This document shows, in pieces, positions 10,975-42,769 of a DNA stretch of 64,000 bases. Under the pieces are notes generated by a model that was not told where the DNA came from, ran no database searches, and worked only from the letters and a program-made list of their open reading frames with translations. Position numbers and translations under genes: made by a program. The DNA comes from Adlercreutzia caecimuris B7 (GTDB taxonomy: Bacteria > Actinomycetota > Coriobacteriia > Coriobacteriales > Eggerthellaceae). The stretch covers positions 1,017,226-1,081,225 of the forward strand of contig NZ_KE159646.1 in assembly GCF_000403355.2 (NCBI RefSeq), given 5' to 3'. Position 1 is the first letter of the stretch; the number at the start of each line of letters is the position of its first letter.

Positions 10975-11160
10975 CCGGAGAAGGGAAAAAGCCGTGGCTA
11001 CACGCCTGGCGAAAGAGAAAGGGCCGCGACTACGCGCGCTCGGAGAAAGAGAGAGCGAAGGCCGCACGCCTGGCGAAATGGAGGAAGCGGGAGCCGCGCG
11101 CTCGGAGAAAGAGGGGGGGGGTCGGGGCCGCACGCCCGGAGAAAGAGAGGGGGGTCGGGG
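10975..11160. repeat. Degenerate tandem repeat, 30-34 bp unit
   Basis: About six imperfect copies of a unit resembling CTCGGAGAAAGAG followed by a G-rich run and GGCCGCACG. Copies alternate between a CTCGGAGAAA and a CCTGGCGAAA head. The purine-rich strand is plus. Unit length varies and there are no constant spacers, so it is a minisatellite and not a CRISPR array. Confidence 0.65.
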
Positions 11161-40930: not shown

Positions 40931-41074
40931 GATCGCTCCATTCGTTAGTCCTCTGCCCGAGGTCTTCCCCGTCTGCCGCAGCCTTTTTCCGGTGGCCACT
41001 CGCGGAGGCAGGTCGCCCGAGCATGTGTGATAGTTACCGCTGCATCTTACGACCCTCGCAGACACAGCCTGTCT

Positions 41075-41102
41075 AAAATAGCACAATCGGCCGCTTATGC
41101 AA
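41075..41102 (-). promoter_or_regulatory. rpsB promoter
   Basis: Minus strand TTGCAT (41097-41102), 16-bp spacer, TATTTT (41075-41080), leaving a leader of about 140 nt before rpsB that could hold an S2 autoregulatory structure. Confidence 0.55.
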
Positions 41103-41184
41103 GGGATTGCGCAAAGAAAATGCTTTTATGTGTTACTCGCACGCCCGTTGAAAGGTGAGGGGCCTAAAAGCCTGCGCTCTCGAT

Positions 41185-42009
41185 CTACTTGAGGCGCATC
41201 CAATGGGAATTGGCCTTGCTTTTCGTGTAGCAGCTATTCTTATTGTAGCCCGCTGCCCAGGTTTTATTCGCCAACTTCCAATTGTAAAGGCTCGTCTTGC
41301 CGAAAGGCGCCTTTCCGTCCCAAAAGTAATCCACCTTGTCGTGCCGTCCGTAGTCGTCGGCAAGCACTCCATTCTGATAATAGCGCAACGTCGAGTACGG
41401 AACATTGTTCCCACCAACGCCAATGCAGAGCCCCTTGTACTTAGAAGGGTAGGTGATCGTTACCTTCACTGTAGCCTTCTTGTACACGTGTACTGAAGAC
41501 CACAAGTCGCTTTTGTACTTCTTCCCCCCGGTGAACCTCCACTTGCCGGACTTGACGGTGACGCCCTTGTCGTTGGGCACCTCCAGGCTCTTCCCCGTGT
41601 TGTAATCCACAACAGCGTACCAAATATAGCCAAAAGCCCCGTCATTCCAATTTCCCGACCAATCCTTCATGCCCCTGATCTGTTTTTTCGTAGGCGAGAA
41701 CCTATTGTTGAACACCAGCGTGAAGGTGGCCTTCTTGTAGCCCTTCTTCTTCGCTTTGGAAACCTTCCAGTTCTTAATCGTGGCCGTCATGCCCTCGTAG
41801 CCCGTGTAGCCACCCTTTCCGGCACCCGGCCATGAGGTTTTGAACTTCACCGTTCTGTTCTTCTTCAAATCCCATTTCAAACCCAGTGACTTCATATGGG
41901 GCTTTGTGGCCGCATGAGCCTTCTCCGCGGTGGCGGGCAGCGCCACCATGGTCGACGCCAGCGCCACCGTCGCCAGCACGCACGCAGCCTTCTTGAGCGG
42001 TTTCTTCAT
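41185..42009 (-). CDS. Secreted basic protein of unknown function
   Basis: 274 aa. A clear Sec signal peptide starts MKKPLKKAACVLATVAL and probably ends at an Ala-x-Ala near residue 35 (AEKAHAATKP). The mature part is rich in Lys, Tyr, Trp, Gly and Asn, strongly basic, with only two cysteines, and looks beta-rich; short segments such as KKATFTLVF and KKATVKVTITY suggest repeated strands. I recognise no domain. Its base composition is visibly less GC-rich than its neighbours, which suggests recent acquisition or a special class of surface protein. RBS AAGGAG precedes the ATG. It stands alone between rpsB and the MetRS-like operon. Confidence 0.75.
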   Translation of the reverse strand: MKKPLKKAACVLATVALASTMVALPATAEKAHAATKPHMKSLGLKWDLKKNRTVKFKTSWPGAGKGGYTGYEGMTATIKNWKVSKAKKKGYKKATFTLVFNNRFSPTKKQIRGMKDWSGNWNDGAFGYIWYAVVDYNTGKSLEVPNDKGVTVKSGKWRFTGGKKYKSDLWSSVHVYKKATVKVTITYPSKYKGLCIGVGGNNVPYSTLRYYQNGVLADDYGRHDKVDYFWDGKAPFGKTSLYNWKLANKTWAAGYNKNSCYTKSKANSHWMRLK

Positions 42010-42400
42010 ATTTTTTCTCCTTTTATTCTTAATCCCGGTACCGATGCCGAAAAGATCTCGAGTCGTCCTCCCGGCCCCTCAGCATTCGCGTTTCTATTTC
42101 AGATCCCGTGGAATCGCGGGGCTTTCATGAAATGTGTGTCTCGTCACGGTCTTAGCGACGAACCTGACGCGAAGCGGTTCTTGCCCTTGGCGACATTGGC
42201 ATAGCGGGCGATCGACACCGTTGTATGCGACGGGATAGAGGTCTTCCACCCGGGGACCCGCGGGTGGATGCAATGAACCCCGAGCACGCTGAAAGGGCCC
42301 GAGGTTCACGGGTGTGAGCGCTTTTGGTGATGTACGAGCCATCGGGGCACAGAAGGTGACAGGAGATAGCGCACTTAGCGCTGGAGCTTAGAAGCGGGTG

Positions 42401-42409
42401 CCCCCCCCC
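42401..42409. repeat. Nine-C homopolymer in the leader
   Basis: Nine consecutive C on plus (G on minus), inside a short frame beginning at ATG 42434 with AAGGAG 5 nt upstream. In the given length the frame stops after 19 codons. With one base fewer it would stay open for about 100 codons. Confidence 0.6.
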
Positions 42410-42449
42410 GGATATGCGTCACAGGCATCGCCATGTCAGCTCCTTCAAT

Positions 42450-42481
42450 CCTGTACAGGTGTAGTTCTTTTATAAGTGAAC
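42450..42481 (-). promoter_or_regulatory. Promoter-like region with two palindromes
   Basis: On the minus strand a TATAAA -10 lies inside a near-palindrome GTTCACTTATAAAAGAAC (42464-42481), followed by the perfect palindrome CCTGTACAGG (42450-42459). Position suits an operator for the downstream leader and secreted protein. Confidence 0.5.
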
Positions 42482-42703
42482 TGCTTTGATTATGCTAGCA
42501 TCTCGCCTGGCCAAACGCAAGATGGCCGAACGAGCAGCGCGCTCGCAGGAGCCGCCGCATTCCCCAGAAATGCAACCCCTCCCCATCGGCCGCTTTCAAC
42601 CCCGCCCCGAAAGCCCTCCGCGCACCACCGCAACGCCCGACGCTCTGCCCGTCCGCCGCACTGCGCGCACGGCCGCGATAGCCACCACGACGCCCTCCCA
42701 ACG

Positions 42704-42739
42704 CAAAAAGGTGCGGCGTCCTGGGGACAGCCGCACCTT
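42704..42739 (-). terminator. Terminator of the transaldolase-rho-sppA-metRS-like operon
   Basis: Ten-bp perfect stem (42708-42717 with 42730-42739) followed by TTTTTGCG on the minus strand. Confidence 0.85.
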
Positions 42740-42769
42740 AGAAGATGCTGGGACGCTGCAAACGAGGCC

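Follow-up and report, generated by a model that had tools for sequence, protein, structure and literature searches.

Poly-G/C tracts act as slipped-strand contingency loci in Campylobacter, Neisseria, and Helicobacter. Surface proteins, glycosyltransferases, and DNA methyltransferases are the classic targets of phase variation. The locus described here resembles these contingency loci in having a 9-nt tract near a start codon led by a Shine-Dalgarno (SD) sequence, and its genome is enriched in such tracts, which occur at genes for surface proteins, glycosylation, and DNA methyltransferases. It differs from them in that the frame past the tract is no recognisable gene in any phase, and the tracts here were read from assemblies. 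The locus also shares with leader-peptide attenuators a short SD-led frame within a long leader, but neither a terminator nor an unusual structure was found in this leader (fold z of −0.81). The gene that follows the leader encodes a protein comparable to Ig-like extracytoplasmic proteins such as B. subtilis YxkC and C. difficile CD630_09570, in that it is secreted and is a predicted beta-sandwich. For the related genus Eggerthella, the literature covered reports phase variation through large inversions (PMC13174815) and through prophage recombinases or diversity-generating retroelements (PMC8778435), and not through slippage of homopolymers. A general precedent for homopolymers close to the start of a gene concerns poly(A) and poly(T) tracts (PMC2831843). 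We found no report of homopolymer slippage in Adlercreutzia or Gordonibacter in the open-licence literature.

We analysed a stretch of 64,000 nt (hereafter the window) from a genome of 2.96 Mb, G000, whose nearest named relatives are Adlercreutzia. A gene with metG and rpsB on either side (41185..42009, minus strand) encodes a basic protein of 274 aa, rich in Lys, Tyr, and Trp. It has its own SD, AGGAG (42017..42021, minus), and a signal peptide covering approximately residues 1–34 (41908–42009, minus). We recognised the positive N-region, hydrophobic core, and A-x-A site of this peptide by inspecting the window protein and the alignments by eye. The length, signal peptide, and SD bear out the existence of the secreted protein proposed in an earlier note on this DNA. 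The gene is accessory. Compared with six relatives (G001, G002, and G004–G007), only the window's genome carries it between metG and rpsB. The interval measures 196, 318, and 532 nt in G006, G007, and G001, respectively, contains an unrelated 386-codon frame in G002 and G005, and contains other sequence in G004. The interval (40949–42769 in the window) is thus variable: nearly empty, occupied by the unrelated frame, or occupied by the secreted gene. We placed the insert at approximately 41120–42497 because some 170 nt ahead of rpsB match in all relatives and the metG side matches G004. This segment, to which no strand is assigned, has no nucleotide match in the metG–rpsB interval of the six relatives, whereas its flanks do match. 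Since the region upstream of rpsB (40949..41119, minus) is conserved in all six, rpsB keeps its own leader, and the ribosomal operon is probably undisturbed by the insert.

The secreted gene has a GC content of 53.3%, against 66% in its flank. The earlier note had called it compositionally distinct, which is true but reflects mostly the composition of the protein. Its GC at the three codon positions is 0.41, 0.44, and 0.75, compared with 0.63–0.74, 0.40–0.50, and 0.85–0.95 in the neighbours. The mature part of the family members has 14–20% Lys and much Tyr, and this puts A or T at codon positions 1 and 2. The GC content of the gene is under that of its surroundings in every family member, with flanks ranging from 37% to 66% GC. 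GC1 and GC2 fall in every member, and GC3 is only mildly low (0.75 in the window gene, 0.85 and 0.79 in the paralogues of the same genome). We therefore reject recent transfer as the main cause of the low GC: the first two positions are affected in all members, and the genome's own three copies hold a GC3 of 0.75–0.85. The low GC is largely explained by amino-acid composition, even if some foreign signal may remain.

The window protein belongs to an undescribed and unnamed family present in Adlercreutzia and Lachnospiraceae. It has no Pfam or NCBIfam assignment and no sequence relative in the PDB, and matches to MecA_N in Pfam are weak (E-value of 1.9e-5, 3 of 13 members). Besides the three members in the window's genome, we found others in G003, G007 (two, of which one is cut short by a TAG), and G008, and none in the other 56 of the 60 relatives searched. 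A profile search of 296 genomes of the class identified no member outside the genus. An alignment search added loci from metagenome-assembled genomes of Lachnospiraceae and other Bacillota, unlike a single-sequence search of genome contigs, which gave no family match. These loci are unlikely to be stray Adlercreutzia contigs because the surrounding GC is 0.37–0.53. In the taxonomic family of one of them, 7 of 397 genomes had a match, one of which was only of signal-peptide length. No member was found on phages, plasmids, or viral contigs. Two distant members are extended at the N-terminus by a region that appears Ig-like on inspection by eye. Four Adlercreutzia members (L029, L035, L041, L042) directly adjoin a gene whose product resembles, by eye, a low-molecular-weight protein tyrosine phosphatase. 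In A. equolifaciens DFI.6.87, the copy (L034, 5929–6630) is truncated by a TAG near the C-terminus, and its tail is still recognisable downstream. A LexA-like box (GAAC-N4-GTTC) lies approximately 60 nt upstream of the L035 member (upstream of 3940), and a close match was spotted by eye in L029 but none in the other members; it was dropped as a family feature, being exact in 1 of 13 members.

The leader of the secreted gene contains a promoter-like site, TTGCGT-17-TAGCAT with an extended −10 (TGC), located at 42492..42520 on the minus strand. It was recognised by consensus match only, and its quality was reached in 0.8% of simulated sequences in a post hoc comparison. The leader is probably transcribed because this site is just upstream of a mini-ORF, and it could still regulate the gene. 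The mini-ORF consists of an SD (AAGGAG, 42440–42445), an ATG at 42434, and 19 codons plus a stop, MAMPVTHIRGGAPASKLQR* (42375..42434, minus). It runs through a tract of exactly nine G (C9 on the plus strand; 42401..42409, minus) that lies 8 codons past the ATG and approximately 390 nt upstream of the secreted gene. The tract is long enough for slippage, for which about 8 nt or more are considered necessary. The leader measures approximately 425 nt if counted from the start of the mini-ORF and 480 nt if counted from where transcription likely starts. This agrees with the earlier note, which had described an SD-led short frame meeting a nine-G run on the minus strand and about 100 codons opened by the loss of one base; we count 93 codons (42153..42434, minus, with an approximate end).

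The opened frame is no evidence of a gene. In simulations that keep the dinucleotide composition, 20% of sequences give an opening just as long (82 codons past the tract, in one or other of the alternative frames), and the frame has a negative codon score, −0.87 bits per codon, against +0.44 to +1.02 in real neighbours. Its codon positions lack the high-GC3 pattern of the genome, a Pfam search gave no match, and the tract is not followed by a signal peptide in this frame, which would end approximately 140 nt before the secreted gene. None of the frames after the tract has a coding signal, and the leader was found to hold no intrinsic terminator on its strand (minus). We also discarded two other origins for the leader. 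A riboswitch or known RNA has one chance-level Rfam match only. A decayed known gene would have to account for a coding-like stretch of 53 aa, which has no Pfam match and only chance-level matches in 346 genomes; the best of them (L098, E-value of 2.9e-4 for one genome) was dismissed by eye, its frame reading like the antisense of a coding region. Of the leader DNA, only the 63 nt nearest metG clearly match a relative, and no second genome carrying this leader was found. Among the 12 other family members examined, none has a long G/C run upstream.

The window's genome has 36 G/C runs of at least 9 nt (22 of 9, 10 of 10, then 11, 12, 12, and 13 nt), a fourfold excess over the approximately 9 expected under an order-3 Markov model trained on the window. 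Runs of exactly 8 are fewer than expected (16 against approximately 38). The window alone has two runs of at least 9, where the model expects 0.2 per 64 kb. The second one (G9, 11113–11121) is in an intergenic purine-rich stretch without a gene frame. Counts vary widely between relatives—17 runs of at least 9 and 1 of exactly 8 in G008, 61 and 16 in G011, 1 and 5 in G007—the former being lower bounds from partial surveys with a pattern that misses some tracts. Some tracts lie inside enzymes, namely a family 2 glycosyltransferase (L067) and a UbiA protein (L066), both out of frame, and two N6/N4 DNA methylases, one out of frame (L082) and one in frame (L084). Others lie between an SD-led ATG, a few codons upstream, and a signal peptide, as in a CAP-fn3 protein (L076, in frame) and in L129 and L144 of G005. 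A third placement is the signal-peptide junction (L065, L096, and L069), of which both arrangements recur in G005 and G004. The complete copies there have 9 or 10 nt at codon 35–39; three of those in G004 are in frame, and all others are out of frame.

The first junction arrangement is a multi-copy surface-protein family with C9 or C10 just past the signal peptide (L065 and L096 in G000; L121, L125, L126, L132, L142, and L143 in G005; L149, L150, and L164 in G004). Every copy whose frame was read is out of frame, a bias that may be due to ascertainment, given that the search for copies with exactly 8 was incomplete. The second has the tract at the same position (L069 in G000; L127 in G005; L151, L152, and L160 in G004), with the three G004 copies in frame (C9) and those of G000 (C9) and G005 (C10) out of frame. 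L090 (G13), L092 (G12), and L071 (C12) are the longest tracts and possibly set promoter spacing; they are close to where an fn3-domain secreted protein, a 646-codon frame, and a LytTR response regulator begin. Frame states were read from assemblies, where homopolymer errors may affect individual lengths; such errors are an unlikely source of the excess of tracts. The excess of poly-G/C tracts of 9–13 nt, several of which split or join the frames of real surface or modification genes, makes phase variation by slippage plausible for the organism in general. The tracts of L065, L066, L067, L069, L076, L082, L084, and L096 likely make up a phase-variation repertoire.

The earlier note had gone further and proposed that the nine-G run could be a phase-variable switch for the secreted protein. 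Our results do not show such a switch and weaken the case for it: the opened frame looks non-coding and ends short of the gene, which carries an SD and start of its own, and a comparable tract was found in 0 of 12 other members. We give about an even chance to the reading we favour, in which the tract is most likely a relic that has become part of the leader, rather than a switch controlling the secreted protein. The insert between metG and rpsB encodes a small secreted basic protein that has its own SD and start. The tract would be one of the long poly-G/C tracts of the genome, which elsewhere occupy first codons or signal-peptide junctions, look like slipped-strand contingency sites, and may cause phase variation of the genes that carry them. 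The promoter-like site, SD, ATG, and tract would be what is left at this locus of a different contingency gene's 5' end, which now lies within a leader and lacks the gene body. The same layout of SD, ATG, approximately 10 codons, and tract is found in the in-frame CAP-domain gene L076 and in L129 and L144 of a relative, but these three have a signal peptide after the tract and the window has none. Our searches did not identify a parent gene for the supposed relic.

The tract might instead be a functional leader switch, where slippage would lengthen the leader frame from 19 codons to 93, leaving approximately 220 nt more of the leader under ribosomes and relieving transcription polarity (e.g., by Rho) before the secreted gene. 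The leader is long and otherwise untranslated, the promoter-like site and SD are correctly positioned ahead of the mini-ORF, poly-G/C tracts are apparently in use in this genome, and other long tracts are found upstream of genes for secreted proteins (L090, G13). Yet we find this mechanism unlikely, since the opened frame is no more than chance would give (20%), the RNA structure is unremarkable (z of −0.81), the minus strand lacks an intrinsic terminator, and the other members have no tract. That a slipped-strand system extends across Adlercreutzia and relatives, with the window tract setting the expression of the secreted protein through the extent of leader translation, seems distinctly improbable. 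A chance G/C run with no role in an unconstrained intergenic segment is a doubtful explanation that deserves some weight: the second G9 in the window (11113) likewise lies between genes and has no gene frame, and many of the 36 tracts in the genome occupy non-coding frames. It has to be reconciled with runs of at least 9 being fourfold more numerous than under the order-3 model and outnumbering runs of 8, and with the position of the tract 8 codons past an SD-led ATG.

As for the secreted protein itself, the earlier note had considered it either a surface or a toxin-like protein. Structure prediction gave a pLDDT of 73.7 for the window protein and a beta-sandwich for a compact Lachnospiraceae member (pLDDT of 92.4, pTM of 0.86). 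The note had also suggested searching structure databases, and this gave weak matches to Ig-like beta-sandwiches, none of them beyond common arrangements (best Z of approximately 7). The top Foldseek match, neurexophilin (E-value of 5e-4), and the Ig domains of CD1 are generic beta-sandwiches and were not taken as kin. YxkC aligns over 110 residues with 14% identity and a Z of 6.3, which is within the range of common arrangements; unlike YxkC, 0 of 13 members match DUF4352 at E-values up to 1. The signal peptides seen by eye in the members and the predicted beta-sandwich support a secreted or surface protein. The toxin-like character gained no support. A horizontally acquired toxin or bacteriocin would fit a small, basic, secreted, and accessory protein with a patchy distribution over two phyla, but it is a very remote prospect given that searches gave no toxin family match, the predicted fold is a generic beta-sandwich, one genome has three copies, and pore-forming toxins appear only among very weak Foldseek matches. 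The signal peptide, composition, and predicted fold suggest that the protein is probably a surface-associated or released Ig-like beta-sandwich that binds something extracellular.

In summary, the secreted protein defines an unnamed family common to gut Actinomycetota and Lachnospiraceae. The broader outcome is the non-random presence of poly-G/C tracts in Adlercreutzia genes for surface proteins, a glycosyltransferase, a prenyltransferase, and DNA methyltransferases. If variation in their length is borne out by reads, these tracts would be a directly testable origin of cell-to-cell variation in common gut commensals.
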